Position numbers and translations under genes: made by a program. From Lachnospiraceae bacterium (lineage in GTDB: Bacteria; Bacillota; Clostridia; Lachnospirales; Lachnospiraceae): a DNA stretch of 64,000 nt. The stretch is taken from positions 62,001-126,000 of the forward strand of contig JAILHF010000051.1 in NCBI GenBank assembly GCA_024696005.1. The letters run 5' to 3'. Positions 5,992 to 34,696 of this stretch are shown here, piece after piece. Position 1 is the stretch's first letter. Each line of letters starts with the position of its first letter. The notes under the pieces were generated by a model. That model made no database searches. It worked only from the letters and a program-made list of their open reading frames with translations, and was not told where the DNA came from.

Positions 5992-6049
5992 AAGCTTGTT
6001 CCTTTTCAAACTGGTTTTAAGACGCGATTTTTGCGCCTGCATTGTCTGT

Positions 6050-6078
6050 ATGGTATCACATAATCGAAGCGCTAACAA
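6050..6078 (-). promoter_or_regulatory. Possible internal promoter before the YdjC gene
   Basis: On the minus strand TTGTTA (6078-6073), a 17-bp spacer and TACCAT (6055-6050) with a TGA extended -10 fit a moderate sigma-A promoter. It sits in the 108-bp gap after the SGNH-like gene. Confidence 0.4.
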
Positions 6079-6099
6079 GCCGAAAGCCTGCCTTTTGGC

Positions 6100-12598: not shown

Positions 12599-14008
12599 TC
12601 ACCATTTCCCAAGAAAATACAGCACGGCCGCCATGTTGGTGATCAGAAAACCGGCGATGCCCCGAAGCTGCATCAAAAGCGGGATGAAACGCTCGCCGGC
12701 ATCCGTTTTCGCGGCGTGATCGTTTCCGGCGCGGTGCCGGAAAGCGAATACCAGGATCCAGGCTACGAACAGAGCCCAGATCGCGCCGTAGAGCTGCGCA
12801 TAAGGAAGGGAAAGCAGCTTGTCGTGAAGATCATTCAGATGGAGATAAGCGCTGCGGTGAAACCAGGTCTTTAAGGGCATCCCTTCGATATCGTTGAAAT
12901 TCGTATAATTCCAGACCACATTCCATGCGCCGAAAACAAGCGTGACGACCGTCTCGGCAAAGAGTTCCCTGCTGCGGGCTCCTTTGTGCGTCATGAGCAG
13001 GAGCAGGACATAGGGTGTGAAATAGATATACCAGTAGGATTTGTCGGCATTTACGGTAAGGAACAGACAGATCACGGACAGCAGGATCCAGTGCATGCAC
13101 GCGCGGTCCTGTGTTTTTTTGTCTTTGTCGGGCTCTTTCAGATAAGCGGCTATGCACACTGCGGCATATAAAAGGAAGAACAGGGGGATCTCCTGCTTCA
13201 GGAAGCTCAGTTTTGTATAGAGCATGTCGTCGAGCATGCCGCCCATGCGGACGCTCTTTTCGGCAAAGCCGGCCGGGTCGGCCAGACGGAAGGGAAGCGA
13301 GATCAGAAACACGCCAATGACGGGAACGAGGGCTTCCGTCGCGATCTGCAGGAGGTTTTTTCTGCGGTAGAGGATCACGGGCAGGATGAAGAAGATCGCA
13401 AAAAACTTGAAATCGGCCGCGAACACGAGAAAGAGCAGATAGCGTTTTGTTTCGCCGCGCAGCATGTGCCGCAGGGCCGTGAGGAGGAAAAAGATCCCGA
13501 TCACATCGACCTGTCCCACGGACTGCGCCGAATTCAGCACAAAGACCGAGGAGCAGAAGAGATAAAAGAGACGGCGGCTGTCCGTTTCTTCCAGGCCGAG
13601 CTCTGTTCCGAGGCGGGACAGGGCACGCCCGGCGAGCAGGGTAAAGATCACGAGGTACAGCTGGGCGTAGACGCGGGCAGCCATGGATACCGAGAGGATG
13701 TCATCACAGTGCATCAGGCGCTCCGCGATATAGAGCGGCAGTTCCCAGATCCCGACCAGAAGATTGACCAGCATCTCGTAATTGGAGAAAAACTCCATGC
13801 GTCCGGCGGCATAGGCGACCGAGCTCACACTGTAATATTGGAAGAAACGGCCGGAAAACAGTGCTTCCCAGACCAGCATCCCCTGGCGGGTATTGGCGGA
13901 CATGTCGCCGTACCAGAGCTGGATCTCACTCAGCGTAAGAAGCAGAAGGATCAGAAGGAACTCTCTTTTGTTCCGGATCAGTTCGGTGAACTGTTTCAGT
14001 GTTTTCAT
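12599..14008 (-). CDS. Multi-spanning membrane protein, probable GT-C-type glycosyltransferase
   Basis: The 469-residue protein has about ten hydrophobic segments. After the first helix there is a short loop with WYGDMSANTRQGMLVWEALF, and aromatic-rich loops follow. Positively charged linkers such as YRRKN lie between helices, and a second half contains YWYIYFTPYVLLLLM. The layout resembles polytopic GT-C enzymes that use polyprenyl-phosphate sugars, but I recognise no specific family motif, so the call is tentative. The ATG at 14008 has AAGGAC upstream and fits the promoter at 14040-14067, whose start point would exclude the longer in-frame ATG at 14041. It is transcribed divergently from the secreted beta-helix protein. 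Confidence 0.6.
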   Translation of the reverse strand: MKTLKQFTELIRNKREFLLILLLLTLSEIQLWYGDMSANTRQGMLVWEALFSGRFFQYYSVSSVAYAAGRMEFFSNYEMLVNLLVGIWELPLYIAERLMHCDDILSVSMAARVYAQLYLVIFTLLAGRALSRLGTELGLEETDSRRLFYLFCSSVFVLNSAQSVGQVDVIGIFFLLTALRHMLRGETKRYLLFLVFAADFKFFAIFFILPVILYRRKNLLQIATEALVPVIGVFLISLPFRLADPAGFAEKSVRMGGMLDDMLYTKLSFLKQEIPLFFLLYAAVCIAAYLKEPDKDKKTQDRACMHWILLSVICLFLTVNADKSYWYIYFTPYVLLLLMTHKGARSRELFAETVVTLVFGAWNVVWNYTNFNDIEGMPLKTWFHRSAYLHLNDLHDKLLSLPYAQLYGAIWALFVAWILVFAFRHRAGNDHAAKTDAGERFIPLLMQLRGIAGFLITNMAAVLYFLGKW

Positions 14009-14039
14009 GGGGTTGTCCTTTTCGTGCAAGATGAGTTTC

Positions 14040-14067
14040 ATTATAAAGAAGAGCATCGGCTTGTCAA
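14040..14067 (-). promoter_or_regulatory. Promoter of the GT-C-like membrane protein gene
   Basis: On the minus strand a perfect TTGACA (14067-14062), a 16-bp spacer and a perfect TATAAT (14045-14040). The predicted start is near 14033. Confidence 0.85.
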
Positions 14068-14080
14068 GAGCCGCGGATTC

Positions 14081-14109
14081 TTGTCATGGGCCGATGAAGA
14101 TGGTATGAT
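14081..14109 (+). promoter_or_regulatory. Promoter of the beta-helix surface protein gene
   Basis: TTGTCA (14081-14086), a 17-bp spacer and TATGAT (14104-14109), divergent from the minus-strand promoter at 14040-14067, with only 13 bp between the two -35 boxes. Confidence 0.7.
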
Positions 14110-14143
14110 GGGCAAAGAGATCGTAAACGGGAGGTGTCTTGGA

Positions 14144-17100
14144 ATGGTAAGCAGAAAACGTTTCCTGGCTGTGATGATGAGTCTGATCCTTTTGTTTTCT
14201 TCCCTTGCGGGCGCTGTCCCGGCATGGGCCGCAGATGACGACGGGACGGATCCGCTTCCGGAAGAATATGTCGTTTCGGAGGATGCGGCCGTTTCCGAAA
14301 ATGAGGGCGGAACGGATGCGGAACCGGGCGATGGGGATCCGGAAGATGCTTCCGGCGCGGAAAGCGCCTCGGAAAACGATGCGGAAGCCGTTTCCGGAAA
14401 CGAAAGCGTATCCGAAAACGAAGGCGGAGAAAACCTTCCCGGGGAAGTGTTGCCCGGAGACGAAGGTGACGGGCATCTTTCCGAGAATATCTGGGTCACA
14501 ACGATCGACGATTCGGGCTTCGTATATACCGGCACGGCGATCTGTCCGGAGGTCCGTGTCTATGACGGGGAAGAACTGCTGCAGGAAAAGCGGGATTATA
14601 CGGTCTCGTACCGGAATAATACAAAGGCCTATGTGATCGAAGACCGGGAATATCCTTCCGCGACGGACATCGAAAAGGCTCCGCAGGTTGTGGTAAGCAT
14701 GAAGGGCAGCTATGGCGGGCAGACGCAGTCGTTTTTCAGCATACGACCGCTTGGCATAAACGAAAGCGGCTTTTCCCTGCCGGACATCACTCTGGCTTAT
14801 ACCGGAAAGCAGCTGAAGTGCAAGCCGTCCCTCTGCTGGCAGGGGAAGATGCTGAAAGCGGGAACGGATTATGTTTTCGGGACGCTGCAGGCTGACGGCA
14901 GCCTGAAGGACCTGACGGTGGAACAGCTGACGGGTGTTTCGGGCACGGATACCGTGACCGTTGTCACGGCGGAAGGCAAAAAGGGCAGCTGCTTCACAGG
15001 GCGGAGGAGCTGCCGGTTTGTGATCAGCGGTGCATCGGGCGCGGTGGCCATGGACAAGGTGAAGGTTTCGGCCGTTCCGGCGCAGGATTACACCGGAGCG
15101 CCCATCCGTACCGATCAGTTCACGAAAAACGGAAAACCGTTTGCCCTTACGGTAAAGGACGGAAAATACGAGCTGGTTCCCGGAAAGGATTACGAGATCC
15201 TGGAAGCCGAAGGAGCTGTGCTGCCCGGGAAATACCGTTTTATCCTGCGCGGGCTGGCGGATCATTCGGGCGAAAGGGCCTATATCGGCGAGAAAGCCGT
15301 GGAATTTACGATCAAAGCGATCCCGATCGGCAAAGCCGAGGTGTGCGGGCTGCCCGGGAGTGTCACTTATGCACCCGGTTCGGAAACGGCTCATCCGGAT
15401 GAGAAGGCCATAGTGCTGCGCCTGGACGGGAAAGAGATCGGCAGGGACCAGTACCGGATCAGCTATAAGAACGACAAAAAAGCCGGGAAAGCTACGATCA
15501 CTTTCGAGGGCTGCAACGGATACAGCGGAAAGAAGAGCGTCGGCTACCGGATCGAAGCCCGCTCCGTAAACGAGTCTTCCGTCACGGTGAGCGTGAAGGA
15601 CTGCGTTTACCAAAAGGGCGGGGCAAAACCGCTTGTTACGGTCAAGGACCGCGGGATCCTGCTGCGGGAGGGGACCGATTACGTGTTAAGCTATTCCGAC
15701 AACAAAGCCGTGAGCGCAGGCGCGAAGAAAGCGCCCAAAGTCACGGTGAGCGGCAAAGGCTTTTACAGTGACAAGAGGAGCACGGAATTTGCAATCACTT
15801 CTGCGCCGTTTTCCGCAACGGCCGGCATTGTCATGAGGGCGTACGATAAGCCGGCGAACGGAAAAGCGGGCGCTTACGTCACGAAGATACAGATCTGTGA
15901 TGCGGAGGGAACCCTCTTAAAAGCCGGGACGGATTATGAAAAGGAGATCATCTACAAAGATGCCGGCGGTAACATCCTGGACAAAAGCCACATTGCTTCC
16001 GAAGGGGAAGTGATCACGGCTGTCGCGACAGGCAAAGGAAACTATCAGAACGGAAGCGTCTCCGCTACATTCCGCATCCTGCCGTCAGGCACGGATATCT
16101 CCAAGGCGAAGGTTACGGCTCCGTCGGTATATTATGCCGGGTACGGCAAAAAGAACGAGTTTCCCGAAAATGCCACGGTAAAGCTTAACGGTACAAGCCT
16201 TGAGAGGCTGGCCGAAGGAGAAAGCGGTGACGGTTATGTGGTGCTGGGCAACAGCTACAAGAAGAATGACCGCGTGGGGACGGCAAGTGTCATGATCCAC
16301 GGGGTGGGCACATACGGCGGCTACAAGACCGTGAAATTCAAGATCCTTTCCAAGACGGCAAAAGGAGCAAAAGCGGTACGTCATATCCCGAAACCGGAAA
16401 AATGCCTGGATGTGACGGAACTGGGCGTGATACCCGATGACGGCATCGATGACAGCGATGCCATCAATGCCGCGATCGCAACGGCCGCTGAAAATGGCGA
16501 CTGCGACCATACGCTGTATTTCCCGGAGGGCAGATATGACATCGCAAAGGGCATCCTGCTGGACAAGGACGGCGTGCAGCTTGTGCTGGACGGCAAAGCG
16601 GTGCTTCATGTGGCGGCAAGGAGCGGAGAGGGGTATAATGTGATCCTCATCCGTGCGGACCGTGCCGGGATCCGCGGCGGAGAACTGAGCGGTGAACGCT
16701 ACCGTCATGCCGGCGGCGCGAACGGACAGTACGGGATGGGGATCAGCATTGACCGGGGTGCCAATGTCACGATCCGCGACATGATCATCCATTCCAACCG
16801 AGGGGACGGGATCTATCTGAATGACGGCGGGAGCGGACGCGTTCACGACATGCTGATCCGGGATTGCGAGATCTACGGAAACAGCCGCAACAATGTCTGC
16901 GTCTCCCGTGCGGACAACACGACGATCGAAAACTGCCGGATCTACGGCGCTGACGGCCATTCACCGATGTCGGGCATCGATCTGGAGCCGGACAGCGGAG
17001 AATCGTTTAAGGGCGTGCGCATCAAAAACTGCGAGATCAGTTCCTGGGAAAAGAGAGGCTGCTTCGAAAAGGGCGGTCTGTGGTGCAATTTCGCGATCCT

Positions 17101-17227
17101 GATCAATTCGGCCGGGCATTCCGTCACAGACGTGACGATCGAAGGCTGCACCCTGAACGGAGACCTGGCCAAGGGAGACTGCGAGCCCAGCCTGATCAAT
17201 ACAAAGATCAACGGAGAGGTCTATTGA
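14144..17227 (+). CDS. Secreted multidomain protein with Ig-like repeats and a right-handed beta-helix (pectate-lyase-like) domain
   Basis: This 1027-residue exported protein has a signal peptide (residues 1 to about 29, cleavage near AWA). An acidic stalk with repeated VSED/VSEN/VSGN motifs follows (to about 115). Next come several beta-rich repeats marked by YTG...LKAGTDYVFG and REGTDYVLSYSDNKA, then a C-terminal parallel beta-helix from about residue 750. The last begins VTELGVIPDDGIDDSDAINA, as in pectate-lyase-3/GH28-type helices. The helix rungs show repeated IRDMIIHSNRGDGIYLN-type turns. Such domains bind or cut acidic polysaccharides, but catalytic residues cannot be assigned here. 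No LPXTG, SLH or other anchor is seen. The start ATG at 14144 has GGGAGGTG upstream; the frame is open much further 5' but has no start signal there. Confidence 0.85.
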   Translation: MVSRKRFLAVMMSLILLFSSLAGAVPAWAADDDGTDPLPEEYVVSEDAAVSENEGGTDAEPGDGDPEDASGAESASENDAEAVSGNESVSENEGGENLPGEVLPGDEGDGHLSENIWVTTIDDSGFVYTGTAICPEVRVYDGEELLQEKRDYTVSYRNNTKAYVIEDREYPSATDIEKAPQVVVSMKGSYGGQTQSFFSIRPLGINESGFSLPDITLAYTGKQLKCKPSLCWQGKMLKAGTDYVFGTLQADGSLKDLTVEQLTGVSGTDTVTVVTAEGKKGSCFTGRRSCRFVISGASGAVAMDKVKVSAVPAQDYTGAPIRTDQFTKNGKPFALTVKDGKYELVPGKDYEILEAEGAVLPGKYRFILRGLADHSGERAYIGEKAVEFTIKAIPIGKAEVCGLPGSVTYAPGSETAHPDEKAIVLRLDGKEIGRDQYRISYKNDKKAGKATITFEGCNGYSGKKSVGYRIEARSVNESSVTVSVKDCVYQKGGAKPLVTVKDRGILLREGTDYVLSYSDNKAVSAGAKKAPKVTVSGKGFYSDKRSTEFAITSAPFSATAGIVMRAYDKPANGKAGAYVTKIQICDAEGTLLKAGTDYEKEIIYKDAGGNILDKSHIASEGEVITAVATGKGNYQNGSVSATFRILPSGTDISKAKVTAPSVYYAGYGKKNEFPENATVKLNGTSLERLAEGESGDGYVVLGNSYKKNDRVGTASVMIHGVGTYGGYKTVKFKILSKTAKGAKAVRHIPKPEKCLDVTELGVIPDDGIDDSDAINAAIATAAENGDCDHTLYFPEGRYDIAKGILLDKDGVQLVLDGKAVLHVAARSGEGYNVILIRADRAGIRGGELSGERYRHAGGANGQYGMGISIDRGANVTIRDMIIHSNRGDGIYLNDGGSGRVHDMLIRDCEIYGNSRNNVCVSRADNTTIENCRIYGADGHSPMSGIDLEPDSGESFKGVRIKNCEISSWEKRGCFEKGGLWCNFAILINSAGHSVTDVTIEGCTLNGDLAKGDCEPSLINTKINGEVY

Positions 17228-22043: not shown

Positions 22044-22071
22044 TTTTCAAAAACAATATTTATGGTATAAT
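22044..22071 (+). promoter_or_regulatory. Promoter of the pseudo-subtilase gene
   Basis: TTTTCA (22044-22049), a 16-bp spacer ending in TGG (extended -10) and a perfect TATAAT (22066-22071). The leader is about 70 nt and contains an eight-T run, but no convincing structured element. Confidence 0.7.
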
Positions 22072-22148
22072 GTGATTTGATTATGTAAACCGAATTGCAT
22101 GATACCATTTTTTTTGTGCATAAATTTATTAAGGAGGAAATACCAGGC

Positions 22149-25100
22149 ATGCAATACAGAAAGATGCGACGTTTTCTTGCCGGAGTGCTGATGGCGGCCA
22201 TGCTGACGGGACAGACACCCGCAGTTTTAGCTGCCGGCGCGGAGGACGGAGAAGTCATAGTGAGTGAAGAGGCCGGGGAAGCGGTCTCGGAAGATCTGAT
22301 CGATGAAGAGGAGACCGTTTCCGAAAACGGGACGGAGGATGAGGGGGACGTAACGCTGCCCGAAGACCTTGTGCCCGGCGTTGATTACGCGGAACATGAG
22401 CTTTGTGCCATCGTGGATGACGAAGAGGAAGGAGAGGCGCTTGCCGCTTTCTACGGCGGAACGGTCCGCAGTTACCAGTACGGCGTTGTCGTGATCGACC
22501 TCGGGGAACAGACCGTGGCGCAGGCCCTGAAGATCAATCGCCCCGACGGGATGAAGGAAGCTTTCCCGAATTATATCCATCATGCGGAAGCTTCGGAGGA
22601 AGCGGCGCTTTATGAGTCGGCATATGCGGAAGATGATGTGGCCATGCCGTCGGCACGCAATTGGGAGGACTGGTATGACGGGACCGTCAGCAGCGACCGT
22701 CTTCTGAATGTTTCCAATCCGGATTATCTCTGGATGCATGACATGGTCCGTACCTATCCGGTCTGGGGTGTCACGACCGGCAAGAAGGAGATCCGGGTTG
22801 CTGTCATGGGCGGCTGCGCGGATGCTTCCCAGGCTGATTTTGCAGAGTTTGACGGCAGCAACAGCCGCATTGATTCCGGATACATGAGCGGATGCATCGC
22901 GTCCGATCCGAACGGGGATGCCACGCATGCGGCGGGCATCGTTGCGGCAGGACTGCAGAACGGCAGGGATGCGGTCGGTATCGCGCCGGGTGTCAGTGTT
23001 TACGGCGTTTCCATCATGAACGAAGACGGCAGCATCACGACGGATGCGTTCTGTGCCGGCATCCGCAAGCTTGTCGGCGACCGCAAAGCCGACATCATCC
23101 TCTTTTCCTCCTTTACGGACGGAACGTTTGTAAAGCAGGAGCAGGATGCCATCACGGATGCCAGAAAGAACGGGATCACGATCATCGCCGGCGCCGGTGA
23201 TTACGGCAGCAATTCGCTGACCTATCCGGCCGCTTACGACGGTGTGCTTTCGGTTGGGGCCGTGGACAAGGACGGCCAGCCCGCACCTTTCTCCAATTTC
23301 GGGACCGCGGTCGATCTGCAGGCTCCCGGAACCGGACTGGTTTCGACGGTAGCAAACAATGCATACGCCAGAAAGAGCAGCACAAACACGGCGGCTGCGG
23401 TTGTTGCCGGTGTGGCAGCCCTTTATATGAGCGCGAACGGGCATGTTGCGCCCGACGACATGAAGGAAGCGCTTGTCGGCGGCAGCGTGAAAGGCATCGT
23501 AAATGCCGAGAAGATGTTTTCGGCTGACAAGACCGCTCCGAAGATCATCCTGAATGACGGACGCGGCTGCCCGGTCGAGGAAGTGCAGGGCGGCAAATCC
23601 GTGACGATCGCTTATACCGTGCCCGGAGATGACAGCATCAGCATCAACGCGATGAACTATTCCGGCAAGCCCGGCAACAACAATGTGATCGTCTATTGCA
23701 CGGACGGAACCGAGCCTTTGATGAAGGACGGTGTGCTCACGCGCGGAAAAGTCTATAACGGAAAGCTTTCCCTGAAAGGAATGCTGAAAGGGGATGGCGT
23801 GCAGAAGGTCACGATCACGGCTGCCTGTGTCAACGGCATGGGCATCATGAGCGAGGTGTCGACGATGATCCTCAAAGTGGATCCGGCTGCCGTCACGCTC
23901 GATCCCGTGATCTATATCGAAGGGGCGCCGAAGCGCATCCCTCTCGGAAGCACCGTTGTCCTGCAGGCGGCGGGAAGCGGTTTCGTAAAATCCTCGGTAC
24001 GCTGGAAGAGGCTCGGCTTTGACGGCGCGGTTTCTTCCGCAAGCCTGAACGAAGTGACCGGCGAGCTGACCGTGCTCGGTGACGGTGACGGAACCGTGAC
24101 CGTGCAGTGCTATGCGACACTGCCTGTCCGCGTGGAGTCCCCTGTCCTGGAGATCCAGGTGAAGCAGGGTGCAAGAAGGACCGAAACGCTCAAGCTTGAC
24201 CAGAAGGAGATCCTGCTTGGATACAGCGAAGAGTCGGCGGACAGCGACAGCTATACCGTGCATGTCACGGAGTGGAAGGCAAAGGATTATAATCTGCTCG
24301 GGGAAAACGAGATCACCCTTTCCTGGAAGAGCAGCAACGAAGAGGTTGTAACCGTATCCGGAAACCAGGAAAGTGCCGTGATCAGGCCGGTAGGTGTCGG
24401 CACTGCAAAAGTGACCTGCACGCCGCTGGACGGCTCCGGCGTCAAGGCAACCATCACCTGCAAGGTGGAGGCGCTGGTCGAGAGCTTTACGATCAAGGGT
24501 TCTACCTATGTGACGAAGAATAAGAGCTATACCTACAAGGCGGAAAACTTCAAGCCGGAGAACTGTGTGAGCCGGAACGTGATCTGGACCATCGCAGACC
24601 GTCCGGACTGGGTCAGCGTGGGGATCACGAGCGGTGTTGTGAAAGTGGCAAAGACCGCTCCGGAAGGCGGTACCTTCACGCTGGTCGCGACCGCGCAGGA
24701 CAAGGGCGGCGCTTCTGCCAGACTTGTGATCACCGTGGCGAAAGCCGGTGCGGACCAGCTCGTCATCTCCGCAGACCGGAACGAGGAATACTTCAAGATC
24801 AAGAAGAACAAGAACGGAAGCATCACTTCGTTCTCGATGTTTACGAAGGACGTGCCCGCGGACGGGGATCCGACCCGCATCCTGCTTACGGCAGCGGGCC
24901 GCAGCAAGGGCGTGGACATGGATTATGACGCAAGCTGGACCTGCAACAAGGCAGACATCGTGAAGCTCACACCCACGGCTTCCGGGGACGGTGTGATGGT
25001 GCGTGCCCTCAAGGCCGGAACTGTCACGATCACCTGCACCCTTTCGGACAGCAGCAAGAAAAAGCAGAAGATCACCGTGACCGTGCGCGAGCCGGTCGAG

Positions 25101-26411
25101 AACATCACGGTCGGCGGCCAGTCCGGCATCATGCAGGGAAAGAGCGCGAAGTTCAAAGCCTCCGAAGTCCTTCCGAAGACCGCGGGAATGAAGAAGGTCG
25201 TCTGGTCGCTGAGTACCAATGCTTCGGGTCTTTCGATCAGCTCCTCCGGCAAGGTTTCGGCAAAGGGAGCGGCAGTCGGCGCGAAGGGTACCGTGATCGC
25301 GACCGCAAAGGACGGCAGCGGCGTGAAGGGCTACATGGACTTTGAGGTCATCAACGAAAAGACCAAGTCGATCGTTGTAAGCGCAAACGCGAGCGGGCTC
25401 GGCTTTAACAAAAAGACCGGAAGCGTGATCAGCGCCCAGCTTTATACCGTGAACATCCCCCGTGTAGGCGGCGATGAGAGCCAGCTCCTTCTGACCACGA
25501 AGGGATCCAAGACCGGACTGCTCTGGACCAGTTCCGACAAGTCCGTCGCAACGGTCACCCCGACCGGGGACGGAACCTCGGCGCTCATCCAGGCGAAGAA
25601 GAGCGGCAATGCGACCATTACCTGCAAGGCGCAGGACGGTTCGTCCAAAAAGGCCAGCGTGAAGCTTACCATTACGGTACCGGCTTCCAATCTGAGCCTC
25701 CTGCCGCAGGATTCCCAGGACGGTGACAGACATTATCTCGGCTTCGGCAACAGCGTGGAGATCCGTGCCGTAGCGGGAAGCACTTACGGAAAGCCCGGAA
25801 ACACTTCGGTAGACTGGTCTTACCAGATCGTAAACGTGGAGCCGGTGAAGAACGAAGCCGGGGAGATTACCGGCTGGAATGTAACGGAGAACAAATACAG
25901 CGAAGACATCAAGAAGCTCGGTGTGGTCAGCCTGAAGAAGGGCGTGCTCACGCTTTCCAAGCTGAAGGATTTCAACGGCTACCAGAGCATGTTCACCAGC
26001 ACGGACCGTGATTATTTCTGCGGCGTGCGTGTGACGGCGGTGACCAAGGACGGGACGAACCTCAAGGCTTCGAAGGTGTTCATCGCAACGCCTGCGGTCA
26101 AGAGCCTGGTCCTGTACAACCTGGGAACGGACACTTCCGTAAAGAACAACATCAACATCAGCGTGGACACCAAGAAAAAGCATTATGTGCTGCGCTGCAA
26201 GCTGGACAGCAACTACGGACAGGGCGAACTGAAACCCGTCACGGGAGTCAAGGTCTCCAGCAGCGATCCTTCGGTCATGAGCGCATACTTCGATGAGGAG
26301 GCCGGCCATCTGGTCGTGAGTGCCCTGAAAGAAGGAAAGGTCAAGATCACGATCCAGGCCAAGGACGGCAGTGATACCAAGCTGGTGATAAACGCTACGG
26401 TACTTCCTTAA
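22149..26411 (+). CDS. Secreted subtilase-fold (S8) protein with all catalytic residues replaced, plus Ig-like repeats
   Basis: The 1420-residue exported protein has a signal peptide (1 to about 29), an acidic VSED/VSEN stalk and an I9-like prosegment region (about 80-125). The subtilase-fold domain spans about 205-480, and Big2-type repeats follow to the end (for example LLWTSSDKSVATVTPTGDG). The fold is clear: IRVAVM, THAAGIVAAGLQNG, ITIIAGAG, YDGVLSVGAVDKDGQ, and VVAGVAALYMSANG. The active site is not. The Asp of VAVxD reads G221, the His of GHGTH reads D257, the oxyanion Asn of AAGN reads D351 and the Ser of GTSMA reads N413. I conclude it is a non-catalytic pseudoprotease, probably a binding or structural surface protein. 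AAGGAGG lies 11 nt before the ATG. No wall-anchor motif is seen. Confidence 0.88.
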   Translation: MQYRKMRRFLAGVLMAAMLTGQTPAVLAAGAEDGEVIVSEEAGEAVSEDLIDEEETVSENGTEDEGDVTLPEDLVPGVDYAEHELCAIVDDEEEGEALAAFYGGTVRSYQYGVVVIDLGEQTVAQALKINRPDGMKEAFPNYIHHAEASEEAALYESAYAEDDVAMPSARNWEDWYDGTVSSDRLLNVSNPDYLWMHDMVRTYPVWGVTTGKKEIRVAVMGGCADASQADFAEFDGSNSRIDSGYMSGCIASDPNGDATHAAGIVAAGLQNGRDAVGIAPGVSVYGVSIMNEDGSITTDAFCAGIRKLVGDRKADIILFSSFTDGTFVKQEQDAITDARKNGITIIAGAGDYGSNSLTYPAAYDGVLSVGAVDKDGQPAPFSNFGTAVDLQAPGTGLVSTVANNAYARKSSTNTAAAVVAGVAALYMSANGHVAPDDMKEALVGGSVKGIVNAEKMFSADKTAPKIILNDGRGCPVEEVQGGKSVTIAYTVPGDDSISINAMNYSGKPGNNNVIVYCTDGTEPLMKDGVLTRGKVYNGKLSLKGMLKGDGVQKVTITAACVNGMGIMSEVSTMILKVDPAAVTLDPVIYIEGAPKRIPLGSTVVLQAAGSGFVKSSVRWKRLGFDGAVSSASLNEVTGELTVLGDGDGTVTVQCYATLPVRVESPVLEIQVKQGARRTETLKLDQKEILLGYSEESADSDSYTVHVTEWKAKDYNLLGENEITLSWKSSNEEVVTVSGNQESAVIRPVGVGTAKVTCTPLDGSGVKATITCKVEALVESFTIKGSTYVTKNKSYTYKAENFKPENCVSRNVIWTIADRPDWVSVGITSGVVKVAKTAPEGGTFTLVATAQDKGGASARLVITVAKAGADQLVISADRNEEYFKIKKNKNGSITSFSMFTKDVPADGDPTRILLTAAGRSKGVDMDYDASWTCNKADIVKLTPTASGDGVMVRALKAGTVTITCTLSDSSKKKQKITVTVREPVENITVGGQSGIMQGKSAKFKASEVLPKTAGMKKVVWSLSTNASGLSISSSGKVSAKGAAVGAKGTVIATAKDGSGVKGYMDFEVINEKTKSIVVSANASGLGFNKKTGSVISAQLYTVNIPRVGGDESQLLLTTKGSKTGLLWTSSDKSVATVTPTGDGTSALIQAKKSGNATITCKAQDGSSKKASVKLTITVPASNLSLLPQDSQDGDRHYLGFGNSVEIRAVAGSTYGKPGNTSVDWSYQIVNVEPVKNEAGEITGWNVTENKYSEDIKKLGVVSLKKGVLTLSKLKDFNGYQSMFTSTDRDYFCGVRVTAVTKDGTNLKASKVFIATPAVKSLVLYNLGTDTSVKNNINISVDTKKKHYVLRCKLDSNYGQGELKPVTGVKVSSSDPSVMSAYFDEEAGHLVVSALKEGKVKITIQAKDGSDTKLVINATVLP

Positions 26412-27529
26412 AGAATAACGGGAGAACGGCGGTACTCGGAAAGGGTGCCGCCTTCTTTTCGGGCGATGTGCGTCCTGAGTTCCGAAGCGCGCATTTCCAG
26501 ATCGAATACGGCAAAGCATTCATCGGACAGGAGAGAGTGTGCATCGGCCGCTTTGGACAGGATCGGGCGGTCGGCGTTTGCACGGATCGCATGCAGAAGA
26601 TCCCCGGCATCCCGGCGGAAGCCGAGCGGCAGGAGATAAGGGCAGTAAGCGCACTCTTCGATCAGAGTGGCGACGTGTTCCCTGCGTATCTTCAAAAGAA
26701 TATGGAGAAGGGAGCGGCGGATATGCGCCGCGCTGATCTCTTTGCTCTTGCAGGCTTCCACGAAAGCGGAAGCGTTTTCAAAACGTTCCAGCCTGGACCG
26801 GAAGCGGTCGGAAAGATCCTCGCAGACATCGAAATAATCCGCAAAGCCTTGATCGGCTTCACTTCTCAGGGCGTAATAGAGCAGGTCGGAGTAGTCGTCC
26901 AGACACAGAAAGCGGCTTTGTCTGAGATACTCGCCGATCAGGGTTTTGTTTTCCTCCGGCATGTAGGCATAAGCACGTTCGTCCGATGCAAGAAGATATT
27001 TCCGGAGCAGCCCGGCCGAGGCATATCCGCCGGAAGCTTCGCTGCTGTCGTGGGCTACGCCCAGGCGGCGCATCGTGACGGGGCGTAGCGGAGAGCGCAG
27101 ATGTTCAAGTGCTTCCAGATAAGCGGCACCGAGGATGTCATTGGGAGCGGGGCGCTCCGAAAAAGGCAGAAAGCTGCCGGACGGGGCGAGTTTTCGCAGG
27201 ACATTGATCTCACCGCTTTCGCTCCCGAACAGAAGAAGATCGCATGCCCCGGTGTGCTCCAGGATCGAGACGGCGCCACGGGCAAAATATTCCGCACTGC
27301 CGCAGGCAAACGGGATGGGAAGCTGAAGGACCAGGTCGGCTCCGGCGGCCAGCAGCATGCGCGTCCGGACATGGCGGTCCGTCAGGGCGGGTTCGCCGCG
27401 CTGTACATGATCACCGCTCAGGACAATGATCAGACGGTCGGCGCCGAGTTCCTCGCGCGCATGGCGCATCAAGGCGATATGCCCCTTGTGCAGGGGATTT
27501 GCTTCCATGATGATCCCGCATGTCTTCAT
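26408..27529 (-). CDS. tmcAL: tRNA(Met) cytidine acetate ligase TmcAL
   Basis: TmcAL (YlbM) acetylates the wobble cytidine of elongator tRNA-Met using acetate and ATP. The 373-residue product has the nucleotidyltransferase motif GIIMEANPLHKGHIALM (HxGH) and the family block SGDHVQRGEPALTDRHVR, followed by AAGADLVLQLPIPFACGSAEYFA. Its stop codon shares the palindrome TTAA (26408-26411) with the stop of the convergent pseudo-subtilase gene. The ATG at 27529 has no Shine-Dalgarno sequence. The -10 of its promoter ends 7 nt upstream, so translation of a leaderless mRNA is predicted. It interrupts an otherwise plus-strand region of exported proteins. Confidence 0.92.
   Translation of the reverse strand: MKTCGIIMEANPLHKGHIALMRHAREELGADRLIIVLSGDHVQRGEPALTDRHVRTRMLLAAGADLVLQLPIPFACGSAEYFARGAVSILEHTGACDLLLFGSESGEINVLRKLAPSGSFLPFSERPAPNDILGAAYLEALEHLRSPLRPVTMRRLGVAHDSSEASGGYASAGLLRKYLLASDERAYAYMPEENKTLIGEYLRQSRFLCLDDYSDLLYYALRSEADQGFADYFDVCEDLSDRFRSRLERFENASAFVEACKSKEISAAHIRRSLLHILLKIRREHVATLIEECAYCPYLLPLGFRRDAGDLLHAIRANADRPILSKAADAHSLLSDECFAVFDLEMRASELRTHIARKEGGTLSEYRRSPVIL
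26428..26459 (+). terminator. Terminator of the pseudo-subtilase gene
   Basis: GGCGGTAC (26428-26435) pairs with GTGCCGCC (26445-26452) with one G-T, and TTCTTTT (26453-26459) follows. It lies 17 bp after the stop codon, inside the 3' coding end of the convergent tmcAL gene. Confidence 0.7.
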
Positions 27530-27613: not shown

Positions 27614-30600
27614 ATGAAAAGGACCATTCGTTGTGCCGTGGCGTGGATCATCACGCTTGCGCTCCTTAGCGGGCATTTTACCGCACTCGCAGCCGAACCG
27701 GATCATGCCGGGGATGCTCCGGATACGGTGAGCGCAGCCGAGACCGAGACGGCAGCGGAGACGGAAAGCAAAGACAGACCGGCTCCGGGATACATGCAAA
27801 CAGACGGGGAAGAAGAGGTGCCTGCGGCTCCTCATTCGCTTCATTTTGAGAAGGCCATGCAGGAGCTTTACGGAGAAGATGCACAGGCAGAGCTCCGTGA
27901 GGACTCGTTGCGCCCGGATTCCGCCTCGCCGCTCAGTTCTTTCCCTGTTTCCCACAGCGATGACTGGCTGGGCTTTTTTGCCGAACACTATCCGCCGACC
28001 CGTGACCAGGGGGCTTACGGCACATGCTGGGCACAGGTTGCCGCCACACTGGCGGAATTCTACCTGGTCTCGCATTCCCTGGCGGACAAGAGCATCGACC
28101 TGAGCGAGTTGCATCTTGCTTACTGGACGTATACGCAGGGAACGACCTCAGCGGCCGTTCCGTATACCGGAGATGCCGTTCATTTTGAAAAAGGGGAAAA
28201 GAATCTTCTGGATAACGGCGGAAGCCTGAAATTCGCGTCGGAGACGCTCATGCGTCAGAGGGGCTTTGTTCCCGAGCAGACGGTCTCTTACGGCAATGCT
28301 TCGGAAGTCGCGGACGGCTGGGCACTTCCGGCCGATACCGAGCGGCGGGATTGCGCCTGGCTGAAAAACGCCATGCTGATCAGCATCCGGCAGAATCCGG
28401 AGCTTGTAAAAGACGCAATCGTCAGCAACGGCGCCGCCGGCATTTCTTTTTATGCAGACCGGAATTATTATGCTCCGGAGCACAATGCCTATTATTGTCC
28501 GGAAGGGCACGAGGCAGAGCATACGCTCACGGTGGTGGGCTGGGATGACTATTTCCCTGCCGAATATTTTGCGGTAAGTGACAACGAACTGCCCTATGAA
28601 GACGGAGCCTGGCTTGTTCGCAACAGCTGGAACGCTTCGGTATCCGCGGATCTGACGTCTTATTTCTGGCTGTCTTATGAGGATGCCAGCTTAAGCGGCG
28701 CATGGGTTTATGAGGTTGACGGGGAGTTCCCTTACGACAATCATTACTATTATGATTCCCAGATCCATGCGAATGCGTACTACGGGGAGGCGACCGGTGT
28801 TACCGAGTTTGCCAATGTTTTTACCGTGGCCGGGGAAGAAGGCGCCCCGAGCGAGAGCCTCGAAGCCGTAAGTTTCGAGATGGCGCTTGTCAACGGCTTG
28901 GGGACCCATTATACGGTCAAGGTCTACGGAAACCTGCAGGGGGATACGCCTGACAGCGGAACGCTGATCCGCAGCGCAACGACCGAAGGAGTCCTTTATT
29001 TTGAAGGCGTCTATACCGTCCCGCTGAAGAAAAACGTGATGCTGGGACGGGGAGAAAAGTTTGCCGTTGTGATCTCGTTTGACGAACCGGGCACGTCCGT
29101 CGTGCTTGAGGGCGCTGTGGGTGCATTCGGTCAGGCGAGCAGCACCGTCGGCGTCCGGAGCGGGCAGAGCTTTGTATCCACGGACCGGAAGAACTGGAGC
29201 GATGTGCTCGGTGACGATCCCGACATGGGGAATCTGGTCATTTCCGCCCTGACAAAGAACGGCGGAGAAAAGCCGGCGGTCGGCCGGATCAGCGTCAGCC
29301 CGAATTCCGTATACATTACCGGCGCGGACGAAACGGTCCGTGCGGAAGTCTGTCTTTATGATGTGAACGGGGAAGCCGTCCACGACAGCGATTACAGTTA
29401 TGTGGTATGGGAAAGCGACGCGCCGCAGATCGCCGATGTCACGCCCGAAGGCGTGATCAGCGGGAGCATGAACGGCTGTGCCTGCATCAGGGCGCGTTAT
29501 GTCGATCCTTCGGTTTCTGAAGATATCTCCGCATGCTGCAGGGTGACGGTCCGCGTGCCTTCGGAAGGGCAGACGGCGATACCGGTGCCCGATCATGCCG
29601 ACGGAGCCTCCTTCTTCCGGGATGAAGAAACGATCAGCTTAAACTGCATCACACCGGGAGCGCGCATCTTTTATACCCTGGACGGGAGCACTCCTTCGGA
29701 AGAGAGCACGGAATATGCCGGACCGTTTGTGATCGGGCCGGAATATGCCGGAAAAACAGTTTCATTAAAGGCTTTTGCCGTGGCGGAGGGGCTTTCGGAG
29801 AGTGAGGTCCTGAGCGTCAGTTATGATGTGATGTCCAAAGGACGCATGCGTCTGAGCAGTTCCGCGAACGGTACCGTCATACGCAGCACGGTGAACGACA
29901 GTCTTTCGCTTTCCGCAAAGCTCTTCTGGCAGAGCAATGAAGAAGAACCGGCAGACGGCTTTTGCTGGACCGTTGAGGATCCCGCTATCCTTCGGATCAG
30001 CGCCGGGGAAGACGGCAGACAGCCGAAGGCATTGCTGACCGGACTCAAAAACGGGGAAACGACGGTATGTGTGAGCGCCTGCAACGCACAGGGGGAGATC
30101 CTCTCGGCCTCGATCCTCATCCGTGTCGACATTCCTTATGTCAATGCGCCATATGCCCGGCCGGCTTCCGGAGAAGCGCTTTTTGAGGGAGATGCGATCA
30201 CCCTCAGCTGCAATGTGCCCGGGGCTTCGATCCTGTATACGATAGGCGGCGGCAGCCCGGTGACGGAAGGCAAGCTGTATGCGGCTCCGATCGCGATCAC
30301 CGAAGAAATGGCGGGTTCGGACCTGACGCTCCGCTTCTTTTCGCGGAAGGCCGGCATGCTCGACAGCGCCGAACAGAAATGCACTTATCGCATCAAGAAA
30401 GGTCAGCGCATCGACCTTTCACCCATGGATCCGACCGTTCCCTTCGACCCGGAGGAACACCGGACCCTGTATCTGGTCAAGGGGCAGAGTTTTACGCCGG
30501 ACACTTCCGTGTTCTGGGTCAGCAGCAATAAAAAGGTGCTTCGCATCGACAAAAACGGAAAGGTGACTGCGGTCGCACCCGGCGTGGCCAGACTGGGCCC

Positions 30601-31729
30601 GGCATCCGAACTGGATGCGGAAGGCAATCTCCGGAACGGGGTTGACATCCTGGTCACGATTCCCAAAGCGGAAAAGAAGAGCATCACGGCGCAGCCCGGC
30701 GACAGCTTCCGCCTGAAGATCGACTGCATCGTTCCCTGCAGGAATGTGGAGACGGGGCGCACCGAAAAAGTGGACTTTTCGGATTTTTATACGAATGTAT
30801 TGTGGTGCGGAAGCAATGATGAGGTCGCTACGATCGACCGCGACGGACTGGTGCGGGTGATCGGGCCGGGGCGCGCGGTCATGAGCGCGTTCCTGAACGG
30901 AAAAGTCATCAATGTGAAGATCAACGTTCAATGCAGGAGCAGCGTGACCTGCAAAGCCGAAGCGGACGGGACGGAACAGCTGATAACGCTGCTTCCCCTG
31001 CAGAAGGCCGTGATCAAGGCACGCGATTTCCGGGCTTCGGCGATCCGCTGGGAGTGCGAGAGCGGGGGAGCGCTCCGCACGGTATATGCCTGGAACGGCA
31101 GTAAGGTGCTGTATTACGAAAATACGGTCCTGCGGATCACGCCCGACGGCAGGATCATATCGACCGGTCCGGGAAGCTGCCTCATCAGGGGCACGGACCG
31201 TTCGGGAGCCACGTTGAGACTGCGTGTCGTGGTGAATGAGCTTCCGGAGCGGCAGATCAGCCTGAAACCCGGTGAGACGAGGAAGCTGAGTGTTCCGAAC
31301 CTCACGATGAAGGAAGTCGGACTGGACTGGGAGCTCAGCGGAGAGGTCGCTTGGTACGGAGCCGGGAAAGTCTCGGCATATCTGGATCAGAACGGGGAAG
31401 CGCAGCTGCATTCGACCTACGACCCCTTCGGCAGCGGCAATCCCTTCCATTACAGCTTCCGGATCATTGTCGAAGATCCCTGTCTGAAGACGGACGCGCA
31501 GCTGGTGCAGAAGGGTTCGAATTATGTGCTGACCCTGCCGGCGGATTGTGAAGAATACAGACTGGACTGGCTCGTCAGACCGTCGTGCGGTGTTTTGTTC
31601 CAAAGCAGCAAACCCGGAATGGCATTTGCGGATGAGGACGGCATCCTCCATATCAAGGGGAAGACAAAAGCCGTGATCAGCGCAAATCTATACGGAAAAA
31701 AGATAACCATAAAGCTGGTAACAAACTAA
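27614..31729 (+). CDS. Secreted C1 (papain-like) cysteine protease with Ig-like and chitobiase-type domains
   Basis: A 1371-residue exported protein with a signal peptide (about 1-27), an acidic linker and a C1-type peptidase domain (about 115-370). The active site is complete: Q132 and C138 in RDQGAYGTCWAQVAA, H303 in AEHTLTVVGWDDYF and N337 in WLVRNSWNAS. Beyond it lie a beta-rich domain, Big2-like repeats (about 555-640) and two chitobiase C-terminal-type domains (FYTLDGSTPSEESTEY, about 669-703, and LYTIGGGSPVTEGKLY, about 860-895). More Big2-like segments run to the end. It probably degrades protein outside the cell or matures surface proteins. GGGGG precedes the ATG by 8 nt. The M3 peptidase gene follows after 15 nt in the same operon. 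No wall anchor is visible. Confidence 0.9.
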   Translation: MKRTIRCAVAWIITLALLSGHFTALAAEPDHAGDAPDTVSAAETETAAETESKDRPAPGYMQTDGEEEVPAAPHSLHFEKAMQELYGEDAQAELREDSLRPDSASPLSSFPVSHSDDWLGFFAEHYPPTRDQGAYGTCWAQVAATLAEFYLVSHSLADKSIDLSELHLAYWTYTQGTTSAAVPYTGDAVHFEKGEKNLLDNGGSLKFASETLMRQRGFVPEQTVSYGNASEVADGWALPADTERRDCAWLKNAMLISIRQNPELVKDAIVSNGAAGISFYADRNYYAPEHNAYYCPEGHEAEHTLTVVGWDDYFPAEYFAVSDNELPYEDGAWLVRNSWNASVSADLTSYFWLSYEDASLSGAWVYEVDGEFPYDNHYYYDSQIHANAYYGEATGVTEFANVFTVAGEEGAPSESLEAVSFEMALVNGLGTHYTVKVYGNLQGDTPDSGTLIRSATTEGVLYFEGVYTVPLKKNVMLGRGEKFAVVISFDEPGTSVVLEGAVGAFGQASSTVGVRSGQSFVSTDRKNWSDVLGDDPDMGNLVISALTKNGGEKPAVGRISVSPNSVYITGADETVRAEVCLYDVNGEAVHDSDYSYVVWESDAPQIADVTPEGVISGSMNGCACIRARYVDPSVSEDISACCRVTVRVPSEGQTAIPVPDHADGASFFRDEETISLNCITPGARIFYTLDGSTPSEESTEYAGPFVIGPEYAGKTVSLKAFAVAEGLSESEVLSVSYDVMSKGRMRLSSSANGTVIRSTVNDSLSLSAKLFWQSNEEEPADGFCWTVEDPAILRISAGEDGRQPKALLTGLKNGETTVCVSACNAQGEILSASILIRVDIPYVNAPYARPASGEALFEGDAITLSCNVPGASILYTIGGGSPVTEGKLYAAPIAITEEMAGSDLTLRFFSRKAGMLDSAEQKCTYRIKKGQRIDLSPMDPTVPFDPEEHRTLYLVKGQSFTPDTSVFWVSSNKKVLRIDKNGKVTAVAPGVARLGPASELDAEGNLRNGVDILVTIPKAEKKSITAQPGDSFRLKIDCIVPCRNVETGRTEKVDFSDFYTNVLWCGSNDEVATIDRDGLVRVIGPGRAVMSAFLNGKVINVKINVQCRSSVTCKAEADGTEQLITLLPLQKAVIKARDFRASAIRWECESGGALRTVYAWNGSKVLYYENTVLRITPDGRIISTGPGSCLIRGTDRSGATLRLRVVVNELPERQISLKPGETRKLSVPNLTMKEVGLDWELSGEVAWYGAGKVSAYLDQNGEAQLHSTYDPFGSGNPFHYSFRIIVEDPCLKTDAQLVQKGSNYVLTLPADCEEYRLDWLVRPSCGVLFQSSKPGMAFADEDGILHIKGKTKAVISANLYGKKITIKLVTN

Positions 31730-31744: not shown

Positions 31745-34696
31745 ATGAAAAAACGTAATGCGAAACAGATCCTGCATTCGGTGCTTGCCTTGGGAGTGAC
31801 GCTGTTCATGATCCCTTCGCTCTTTGCTTCGGCTGCGGGAGAACATGACGGACGGCTGACGGACCGTACGGATCATTCGGACGAGAAGTTCGGTGATTAC
31901 GATTATCACCGGATGGATGAAGCCGACTTCAATAAGATCATCGACGGCCTGGATGAGCTCGTGCAGGATACGGCCAATGCCGACGCGGTCCTGGATGTGA
32001 TCGTCGGGATGGAAGACTATTACAACGAACTGAACGGATTGTATGCGATCGCGCACATCCATTCCGATCTGGTCGCGGATGACGCATATTGGGACGACGA
32101 GGTGAAGTTCTGCGATGAACTGACAACCAACGTCGGGGACAGCATCATGCGCAGCTACCGTACCATTGCGCTTTCCCCGAATTCGGATGTTTTGCATGAC
32201 CGCATCGATGACGAGGATGAATGGCAGGAGATCCTGGATTACGTCGACATGACGCAGGAACAGAAGGATCTGAATGCAAAGGAGACCGAGCTGTCCCTGG
32301 AATATGACGTCCTTTACAACGAGAAATATACGACGAAGATCGGCGGAAAGGATTACAACGAGGATGAACTGAGCGAAGCGAACGGCAACGGGACCATCAG
32401 CAGGGATGATTTCCTGAACGGTTACGCCGATATCCTGAAGAAAAAGAACGAAAAGCTCGGCAATCTGTATCTGGAGCTTGTGGATGTGCGTACCCAGCTT
32501 GCCAAAAGCTACGGTTATGACAATTACGCCGAATACGCCTATGAAAAATCGTATGACAGGGATTACACCTACAATGACATGGCTGCTTACCGGCAGAGCA
32601 TCAAGGACTATTTCATTCCGATGCAGGACGAGTTGATCATGCAGCTTTTCGGTGTGTATTACGATCAGTACACGGAATCGCAGGAGCAGAAGATGCCGGT
32701 CAAGGACTGCCTTGCCAATCTCCGCAGATTCCTTCCCGAGATCAGCAACGACCTTCTGGTCTCGCTCGATTACATGGAGCAGCATGATCTTTATGATCTG
32801 GAGGTGAATGATCAGAAGGCTCCCGGCGGATATACCATCACTATCTCGGGGTATAACGCGCCCTATATGTATAACTGCGCGAGCGGCACCTATTCCGACA
32901 TGAGCACCCTGATCCACGAATTCGGTCATTACAACAACGCCTATTACATGTCGGAAGACAGCTGGTATTATGGGGAAAGCGATCTGGACCTGGCGGAGAT
33001 CCATTCCCAGGGCCTGGAAATGCTCTTCATGGATTATTCGGATGATCTCTACGGCGATTATGCGGACGTGATGAATTTCATCAGCCTCTACAACATGTCT
33101 TATGCCGCCGTGGAAGGCGTAAAGGAAGACGAGTTCCAGCAGCGTGTTTACCAGAATGCCGACGGCCTTACACTGGATAAACTGAATGAGATCTATTACG
33201 ATGTCTGCACGGAGTACGGCGGAAGTTATCTGAGCATGATGAACAACAGCATCGCTCTTGCAGATCAGGGGTATCTGGACAAGAATGTGGTCCTTGACTG
33301 GGTGAACATCCCGCATACCTTCCAGTCGCCCATGTATTACATCAGTTATTCCGTCTCCGTGGCTGCGGTATTCGAGCTCTTTGACCAGATCCTCGATGAC
33401 CGTGACGAAGGAATTGAGGTATATCTGAGACTGGTCGATCAGGAATACCAGGACAGCTACCAGAACACGATCACTGCGGTCGGGCTGAACAACCCGATCC
33501 AGAATCCCCGTTTTGACGTGTATGCGAATGATATTCTTTACTATGCAGGCATGAAGGATCAGGACGAGTGGCAGGAAGAGCACGATGCAGCCAAGGCGGC
33601 CCTGGGCGGCACTGTCGTGGAGAAGCCTGAGGAAAAACCGGATGAACCCGAAAAGCCGACGGTAGATGATGACGATGATGATGATGACGATGATGAGAAG
33701 GACCGGGAGGCCCGGGACAAGGACGAAGATCCCATCGATTCGATCGGCTTCCCGCTGTGGGCGATCATAGCCCTCGGGGGGATCGCGTTCCTCTTCGTTG
33801 TTGTGCTGATCATCCTGATCGTGGTTCTTGTGAAGAGAGGAAAGGATAAGAAGAATGCGCAGAGGCCTGCCGGGCCGATCGCCCCGAACTCCTATGTTCC
33901 GAATGCCGCTCCCGGAGGTGCTTATAATGCCGGAGCCCCTGTCAATGGAGGCATGAATGGAGGCATGACGCCCGGAATGAACAACCGGCCCGTAAACGCT
34001 GCGGCCAATCCCATGGGCGGACAGGCATTTGGGAATGCACAGGGCGGATATGTGCAGAACAATCCCTATGTGGTGCAGAGCGGAGAGATCAAGCCTCCGA
34101 CCGGCATGCCGGTCAACCCTTACCTTTCGGGCTTGAACGGGCAGGGTGCCCCGATGCAGCAGAATGCGCAGCCGATGCAGAGTGCGGCTGCAGCCGGAAT
34201 GCAGCAGCCCATGCAGGGATCCTATGGGGCTCCTCAGGCTTCACAGCCCATGCAGCAGAGCCTTTCCGAAGCGCCGCAGCAGATGACGCAGCCCGTGCAG
34301 CAGACATCTTACGAGGCACCGCAGGTTTCGGAGCCCGTGCAGCAGATGCCGCAGGAAGCGCCGCAGCAGATGACGCAGCCCGCACAGCAGACTTCCTACG
34401 AGGCTCCTCAGGTTTCACAGCCCGTGCAGCAGACGTCTTACGAGGCGCCGCAGGCTTCGGAGCCCGTGCAGCAGAGCCTTTCCGAAGCACCGCAGATGAC
34501 GCAACCCGTGCAGCAGACGTCCTTCGGGATGCCGCAGGCTTCGCAGCCCGAGCAGAGAGGCCCGCTTCAGCAGAATGCGGGGCCCGTTCCCGAGCAGAGA
34601 GGCCCTTACACGGCCCCGAATCCGTATCTGCAGAATCTGGAGCGGATGCGTCAGGAGGAAAACGCCGCGGATAAGAAGGACGGGGGCGAAGAATAA
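31745..34696 (+). CDS. Exported, membrane-anchored M3-type (oligoendopeptidase F-like) metallopeptidase with Gln/Pro-rich tail
   Basis: The 983-residue protein starts with a signal peptide (about 1-30). A peptidase domain follows with the zinc site HEFGH (391-395) and the downstream glutamate E418 in LDLAEIHSQG. The family-typical WVNIPHTFQSPMYYISYS is also present. A run of aspartates (near 640-650) precedes one strong membrane helix (about 670-695, FPLWAIIALGG...) and then KRGKDKK. By the positive-inside rule the last 285 residues lie in the cytoplasm. That tail is rich in Gln, Pro, Met and Ala, with repeats such as QPVQQTSYEAPQ. M3 oligoendopeptidases are usually cytoplasmic, so an exported anchored form is notable. 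GGGAGAGG precedes the ATG, and it is cotranscribed with the C1 protease gene. Confidence 0.85.
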   Translation: MKKRNAKQILHSVLALGVTLFMIPSLFASAAGEHDGRLTDRTDHSDEKFGDYDYHRMDEADFNKIIDGLDELVQDTANADAVLDVIVGMEDYYNELNGLYAIAHIHSDLVADDAYWDDEVKFCDELTTNVGDSIMRSYRTIALSPNSDVLHDRIDDEDEWQEILDYVDMTQEQKDLNAKETELSLEYDVLYNEKYTTKIGGKDYNEDELSEANGNGTISRDDFLNGYADILKKKNEKLGNLYLELVDVRTQLAKSYGYDNYAEYAYEKSYDRDYTYNDMAAYRQSIKDYFIPMQDELIMQLFGVYYDQYTESQEQKMPVKDCLANLRRFLPEISNDLLVSLDYMEQHDLYDLEVNDQKAPGGYTITISGYNAPYMYNCASGTYSDMSTLIHEFGHYNNAYYMSEDSWYYGESDLDLAEIHSQGLEMLFMDYSDDLYGDYADVMNFISLYNMSYAAVEGVKEDEFQQRVYQNADGLTLDKLNEIYYDVCTEYGGSYLSMMNNSIALADQGYLDKNVVLDWVNIPHTFQSPMYYISYSVSVAAVFELFDQILDDRDEGIEVYLRLVDQEYQDSYQNTITAVGLNNPIQNPRFDVYANDILYYAGMKDQDEWQEEHDAAKAALGGTVVEKPEEKPDEPEKPTVDDDDDDDDDDEKDREARDKDEDPIDSIGFPLWAIIALGGIAFLFVVVLIILIVVLVKRGKDKKNAQRPAGPIAPNSYVPNAAPGGAYNAGAPVNGGMNGGMTPGMNNRPVNAAANPMGGQAFGNAQGGYVQNNPYVVQSGEIKPPTGMPVNPYLSGLNGQGAPMQQNAQPMQSAAAAGMQQPMQGSYGAPQASQPMQQSLSEAPQQMTQPVQQTSYEAPQVSEPVQQMPQEAPQQMTQPAQQTSYEAPQVSQPVQQTSYEAPQASEPVQQSLSEAPQMTQPVQQTSFGMPQASQPEQRGPLQQNAGPVPEQRGPYTAPNPYLQNLERMRQEENAADKKDGGEE
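34200..34560 (+). repeat. Degenerate repeats encoding the Gln/Pro-rich tail
   Basis: Imperfect units encoding QPVQQTSYEAPQVSQ or QPMQQSLSEAPQQMTQ recur about six times with strong DNA similarity, for example CAGCCCGTGCAGCAGAC. All keep the reading frame. Confidence 0.8.

Follow-up and report, generated by a model that had tools for sequence, protein, structure and literature searches.

The subject of this report is a gene at positions 22149..26411 (plus strand) of a 64,000-nucleotide stretch of Lachnospiraceae DNA, the whole of which is referred to below as the window; the gene encodes a 1420-residue protein of the subtilase (S8) family in which the catalytic residues have been replaced (hereafter, the pseudo-subtilase). 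The frame is open throughout, in agreement with the original prediction that it is intact, and Pfam recognises Peptidase_S8 (2.8e-28, residues 228-443) and Big_2 (1.5e-14) in the translation. A signal-peptide-like N-terminus, judged by eye from its basic start, hydrophobic core and A-x-A motif (approximately residues 1-28; 22149..22232, plus strand), is followed by an acidic linker, a prodomain (approximately residues 70-148; 22356..22592, plus strand), another linker, the S8 domain (residues 191-462; 22719..23534, plus strand) and a C-terminal region of immunoglobulin-like (Ig-like) repeats including Big_2 (residues 463-1420; 23535..26408, plus strand; best Big_2 stretch by Pfam, residues 1117-1169). 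Such an organisation suggests that the protein is probably secreted. On the plus strand, a ribosome-binding-site-like AAGGAGG (22131..22137) lies 5' of the ATG at 22149, and a terminator-like hairpin of 10 pairs was found by a scan 3' of the gene (26428..26452). A consensus scan also returned a promoter-like TTTTCA-16-TATAAT (22044..22071, plus strand), one of three such sites in the scanned region against a mean of 2.5 in shuffled sequences, i.e., without any excess over the shuffles.

The S8 domain was delimited by Pfam, by alignments and by a profile built from seven catalytically dead copies of the same type, which matches the solved subtilases 1dbi (best, 1e-46) and 1bh6 and aligns the same motifs to them. 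Thus, the expectation that the S8 motifs had been kept was borne out. The prodomain was recognised by alignment with the prodomains of active paralogues and with small stand-alone prodomain-like proteins, and it scores 4.5e-9 in a genus-wide search for proteins of the latter kind. The prosegment had originally been called I9-like; the prosegment itself is supported by this homology, while I9 is a loose label, because neither Inhibitor_I9 nor PF22148 was matched by the window protein in Pfam at E values up to 0.1 and L154, one of the stand-alone homologues, has its match (1.5e-06) in PF22148, the Fervidolysin_NPro-like family.

In place of the Asp-His-Ser triad and the oxyanion-hole Asn of an active S8 peptidase, the window protein carries Gly for the catalytic Asp (codon 221, 22809..22811), Asp for the catalytic His (codon 257, 22917..22919), Asp for the oxyanion Asn (codon 351, 23199..23201) and Asn for the catalytic Ser (codon 413, 23385..23387), all on the plus strand. 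These are exactly the residues originally predicted, and they were read in MAFFT alignments with relatives of the same genus in which the Asp, His, Asn and Ser are all intact (DHNS). An alignment error as the source of the apparent loss was rejected. Codons 318-325 (23100..23123, plus strand) read LFSSFTDG in the position of an NMSLGG-type strand of active relatives, which in subtilisin is the substrate-edge strand.

Is this loss peculiar to one gene, or is it shared by a wider group of subtilases? A full-length search of 35 genomes of the genus (E up to 0.001) gave a match in 20 of them, many of the matches being weak or to active paralogues. Seven complete copies of the window's dead type were recovered (the window, G032, two in G011, G017, G028 and G015), together with a contig-edge copy in G012 (L039), in which the oxyanion position is Asp and the Asp and His positions are unreadable. 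A sister dead type is represented by two copies (G023 and G010), whose Asp, His, Asn and Ser positions read A, K or N, D and S, respectively. Within the window's type, the catalytic Asp is Gly in all seven complete copies, the His position reads D, N, E, S, E, N and S, the oxyanion Asn is Asp in 8/8, and Ser is kept in four of the eight, the others having N, N, H or G. Therefore, the homologues uphold three of the four substitutions: 9/9 complete members of the clade have Gly or Ala for the catalytic Asp, another residue for the His and Asp for the oxyanion Asn. The fourth is not upheld, as Ser survives in six of the ten copies; only the window protein, L035, L038 and L040 have lost all four, which places the window protein among the most thorough losses. 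In a tree of 49 S8 domains, constructed without the contig-edge partial copies L039 and L086 and also without L191 and L192, the nine complete dead copies form one clade with support of 98/98. These alignments and this tree suggest that the ancestor shared by the clade, which is confined to a single genus, had already lost the catalytic set but not the fold, and that the loss is old and maintained.

The loss of catalytic residues and the variability of the His and Ser positions could also be read as signs of a decaying pseudogene. This reading we reject as barely credible: the window gene and the 6/6 other complete copies of its type have full-length frames without internal stops, the catalytic loss is an old, clade-wide state, and the ratio of nonsynonymous to synonymous substitution rates (dN/dS) is low among the relatives. 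For the prodomain and S8 domain taken together, four dead pairs gave a simple dN/dS of approximately 0.13-0.17 and two active pairs one of 0.12-0.17, with dS near saturation in all pairs but one; the pair of the window protein and L034 is saturated and yields no ratio. The low values indicate purifying selection and no more.

The pattern of conservation within the S8 domain provides one more piece of evidence. We considered 49 columns conserved in at least 85% of 37 active S8 domains (DHNS intact by construction; the distant short S8 of L053 as well as L039, L086, L114_5620 and L157 were left out) and called a column lost if it was kept by at most two of the seven dead copies. In the cleft motifs, with windows drawn to take in the substrate-edge strand and the surroundings of each catalytic residue, 9/18 columns were lost, versus 1/31 elsewhere (Fisher p=2e-4, a value to be read with the relatedness of the rows and the author-set motif windows in mind). 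The lost cleft columns include the Asp, His and Asn, the substrate-edge strand, a Val that follows the His motif, and two residues flanking the Ser motif, a Gly ahead of it and a Pro behind. The strand columns correspond to N123, S125 and G127 of subtilisin.

An enzyme working through an unconventional site would accord with the Ser kept in 6/10 clade copies and with the Asp at position 351 in 10/10; nevertheless, the window protein is without that Ser, its substrate-edge strand is replaced, and no new His conserved across the dead type was found, H197, H228 and H260 being common in active relatives as well. We regard this explanation as very improbable. A somewhat better case, still an improbable one, can be made for a structural spacer, in which the S8 domain would be only a stable folded block and the function would lie in the Ig-like repeats. 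In four of the six relatives compared (L036, L037, L038 and L040), parts of the tail are at least as similar to the window protein as the S8 domain is, and the neighbouring C1 protein bears Big_2 repeats too, but more than a spacer is suggested by the stripping of a cleft outside which 30/31 conserved S8 columns were kept, and by a dN/dS that is no higher for related dead pairs than for active ones. The S8 identity between the window protein and these six relatives ranges from 53 to 37% and exceeds prodomain identity in 6/6; the S8 domain is the most conserved region in L034 and L035 and is tied in L038. The originally proposed selection for a non-catalytic role thus finds support in the clade-wide loss of Asp, His and Asn, the selective stripping of the cleft, the comparatively good conservation of the S8 domain within the protein and the low dN/dS of related dead pairs, close to that of active pairs.

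Another important question is how the pseudo-subtilase relates to the active subtilases of the same genomes. The host genome holds two further S8 genes on other contigs (G000:C51 and G000:C67), both DHNS intact, and parts of the window protein's C-terminal region match the C-termini of both; an active member of the subfamily is likewise present in 8/9 genomes of the genus that have a pseudo-subtilase of the clade. The active genes have a companion. According to a prodomain-profile scan of the fetched loci, 9/10 active DHNS genes of the genus (the exception being L052) have a stand-alone prodomain-like protein in the fetched flank, seven of them directly adjacent and two (L042 and L043) approximately 4 kb away; the one beside the active G000:C51 gene is a lipoprotein-like product of L041:11562-12134, with 18 similar small open reading frames (ORFs) elsewhere. 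Near the nine complete dead genes of the genus, no such protein was seen, some flanks being cut by contig ends, as expected if the dead copies have no activity to restrain. In the genus-wide search, small prodomain-like proteins occur in exactly the nine genomes with a live subfamily gene (two in G023) and were not found in the other 26, counts that are not independent because the genomes are related; among those 26, the match in G007 lies inside a 2541-aa frame and that in G015 inside the dead subtilase itself. Outside the genus, the association is less regular (10/26 fetched loci with live or presumed-live genes). A lipobox-like Cys, under a loose pattern, is present in 9/9 stand-alone proteins of the genus and in 13/19 overall, and four of the six without it have a hydrophobic N-terminal stretch. 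From these features, the stand-alone proteins are possibly tethered inhibitors or folding helpers; stand-alone prodomain-like inhibitors, SUB1-ProM and others, are known in eukaryotes (PMC6993865).

This distribution bears on the possibility that the pseudo-subtilase is a regulator or decoy of its active paralogues, competing with them for substrates or soaking up the stand-alone prodomain-like proteins. The co-occurrence in 8/9 genomes speaks for it, as do an independent dead copy directly before a live one in Butyrivibrio sp. AE3009 (L114) and the precedent of CspC/CspA with CspB (PMC6636752). Against it, the 99% complete draft G015 has a pseudo-subtilase, and our searches of it found neither an active subtilase of the subfamily nor a stand-alone prodomain protein, although an S8 gene of a different type is present there; the flanking DNA fetched around the dead genes of the clade, cut short in places by contig ends, showed no live S8 gene; and the attached prodomain of the pseudo-subtilase should already fill the inhibitor site. 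We therefore consider such a role rather unlikely overall: possible where both partners occur, and unlikely as a general role given G015. Of the roles originally proposed, inhibition of another subtilase is disfavoured as a general one on the same ground, and a binding or surface module would be the best reading.

Catalytic loss is not confined to this clade. The dead AE3009 copy (L114:5620-8955), which reads DRDA at the four positions, stands in tandem with the live DHNS copy (L114:9070-12486), and a different genus of the family yielded a separate DHDG line, seen in three of its genomes (G412, G437 and G442; L157, L191 and L192), with the dead subtilase of L157 at 5137-7131. Of the DHDG line, only the G412 copy is in the tree, on a long branch. 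Both lines are placed apart from the dead clade of the genus, and a single origin of all dead copies is disfavoured, as the starred branches force at least three label changes. This topology suggests three separate losses, with the caveats that three changes could equal one gain and two losses of the label and that the placement of L157 is unsure.

The oxyanion Asn is Asp in 13/13 complete dead copies found (seven of the window's type, two of the sister type, one from AE3009 and three DHDG) and none of the other three positions has changed throughout the dead copies, the 38 DHNS rows carrying Asn by definition; this replacement offers a simple test for dead subtilases in other genomes. The dead-type profile was also run against 397 sampled genomes of the family, few of which belong to the genus studied here, and 33 of them have a match at 1e-30; the top score, 610 bits, is that of the window protein, which is itself part of the profile, followed by an active paralogue with 275. 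Among the 22 of 46 listed family rows that were examined, only L157 is dead besides the window protein, three split rows being judged by motif. Sixteen S8 ORFs with insertions, split or belonging to other subfamilies were checked for motifs; the His, oxyanion-type Asn and Ser motifs are present in 14/16, L085 has the His and Ser motifs without a clear Asn motif, and L095, a partial S8 match, has His only. The Asp pattern matched 3/16 of these and does not establish the Asp state of the others.

Downstream of the pseudo-subtilase, the window encodes a papain-family (C1) protein with lectin-like, CHB_HEX and Big_2 regions and intact catalytic residues (27614..31729, plus strand), identified by Pfam, synteny and active-site alignment, followed by an M3-family peptidase (31745..34696, plus strand), identified by Pfam and carrying HEFGH in 8/8 loci compared. 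The M3 protein ends in a long tail rich in Gln and Pro and also has a segment that resembles a membrane span. Relatives of it are present in 34/35 genomes of the genus, so that its gene serves as a fixed landmark. The order dead subtilase, C1 protein, M3 recurs in L034, L035, L036, L037, L039 and L040, i.e., with the window, in 7/8 copies of the window's type, and the slot before the C1-M3 pair is filled by a dead subtilase in 7/8 such loci. In the window, the pseudo-subtilase and C1 genes are separated by a minus-strand gene (26408-27529); a relative of this minus-strand gene precedes the subtilase in L035, indicating that the locus has been rearranged. Elsewhere in the window, the ORF at 13466-17227 encodes a beta-helix/pectate-lyase-like protein whose signal-peptide-like segment lies well inside the listed frame, and its start is therefore probably further downstream.

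The C1 active site is intact in six of the eight loci (window, L034-L037, L039, L040 and L168 being compared), the His and Asn of L040 having been read from the locus alignment, as those columns are a gap in the wider C1 alignment. The two dead copies are L035:10050-14111 (G011), in which Gly replaces Cys, Ser replaces Asn and His is kept (G/H/S), and L168:10692-14744 (G019), which has Ser, Gln and Asp in the places of Cys, His and Asn (S/Q/D). All 20 C1 relatives fetched from elsewhere, of 44 rows listed, are intact, and the comparison (2/8 vs 0/20) is no more than suggestive of dead C1 copies being special to this locus. Catalysis can thus be lost from both protease folds of the locus, as would suit a locus put to some use other than proteolysis, with the numbers being small.

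Taken together, these data make it probable, in our judgement, that the pseudo-subtilase is a non-catalytic binding or scaffold module of the cell surface with an uncleaved prodomain, derived from an active prodomain-bearing subtilase of the same architecture; because the relatives show the catalytic loss to be old and maintained, binding rather than cutting is the most likely activity. The ancestor would have been an active subtilase with a signal-peptide-like start, a prodomain, an S8 domain and Ig-like repeats, which in the ancestor of the clade would have lost its catalytic set and retained its fold. Since the protein should be unable to cut itself, self-cleavage without the triad being unlikely, the prodomain should stay covalently attached and may cover the former cleft, so that prodomain and S8 domain would form one locked unit. 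The Ig-like repeats would hold this unit out from the cell, where it could act as a binding or scaffold module, the papain/lectin-like neighbour being the first candidate partner.

Several observations weigh against this explanation. L038 and the two sister-type copies sit away from the C1-M3 pair, and G019 has the pair without a pseudo-subtilase, so that the C1 neighbour does not need it and a dependence of the C1 protein on the pseudo-subtilase is weakened. Residues 1111-1180 are more conserved than the S8 domain in L036 and L037, as are four parts of the tail in L040, and the function could accordingly lie in the repeats. Most of the dS values behind the dN/dS ratios are near saturation, as stated above, and the Ser retained in 6/10 copies leaves residual chemistry of another kind formally possible. 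On a wider scale, we put forward tentatively, as a rather improbable reading, a surface system of switched-off protease folds (the subtilase and, in two relatives, the adjacent papain-like protein), with the active paralogues policed by membrane-tethered prodomain mimics and with the Asn to Asp change, found in every dead copy from apparently three origins, as a step by which subtilases are repeatedly switched off and by which dead ones could be recognised.

Pseudo-subtilases are already known as a kind, and the bacterial ones that came up in our literature searches are the Csp proteins of spores. Among the matches listed in our search of open-licence literature, by title and beginning of abstract, no secreted Lachnospiraceae pseudo-subtilase was found. 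The present clade adds another lineage, from rumen-type Lachnospiraceae, whose members bear Ig-like repeats and are probably secreted; the loss here is old and appears to have occurred more than once, and most of the genomes concerned also have live paralogues that allow comparison. Given its strong Pfam S8 match, the window protein would likely be scored by automatic annotation as an active peptidase, which would inflate predicted proteolysis.

The closest parallel in Bacillota is provided by CspC and CspA of Clostridioides difficile, which, according to PMC6636752, share the subtilase fold, replaced catalytic residues and a non-catalytic role, the prodomain of CspC remaining uncleaved and clamped. 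The same source describes a jelly-roll insertion of ~130 residues, an action in spores and a CspC that keeps Asp105 (G485, T170, D105), whereas the S8 region of the window protein (272 residues) aligns without such an insertion, both its Asp and its oxyanion Asn have been lost, and it has a signal-peptide-like start and a long Ig-like tail. That start, as judged by eye, would argue against a Csp-like localisation in spores or role in germination. Lachnospiraceae Csp proteins have intact triads, according to PMC6636752, and the window protein therefore belongs to another lineage. Human PCSK9 (PMC8198903) is a subtilase that retains its prodomain and acts by binding, which by analogy may apply to the window protein; it differs in its intact triad, its one self-cut and its C-terminal domain. 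PIMMS2 of Plasmodium (PMC5520436) is a subtilisin-like putative pseudoenzyme with a signal peptide whose catalytic residues drift among orthologues, but it is a protist protein with a transmembrane segment, and its P. berghei form keeps the triad residues and not the HGT and GTS motifs. Finally, the active subtilases of the host genome, G000:C51 and G000:C67, are homologous to the window protein in the prodomain, the S8 domain and the C-terminal region, and differ from it in their intact DHNS set and, in the case of C51, in the stand-alone prodomain-like lipoprotein alongside.

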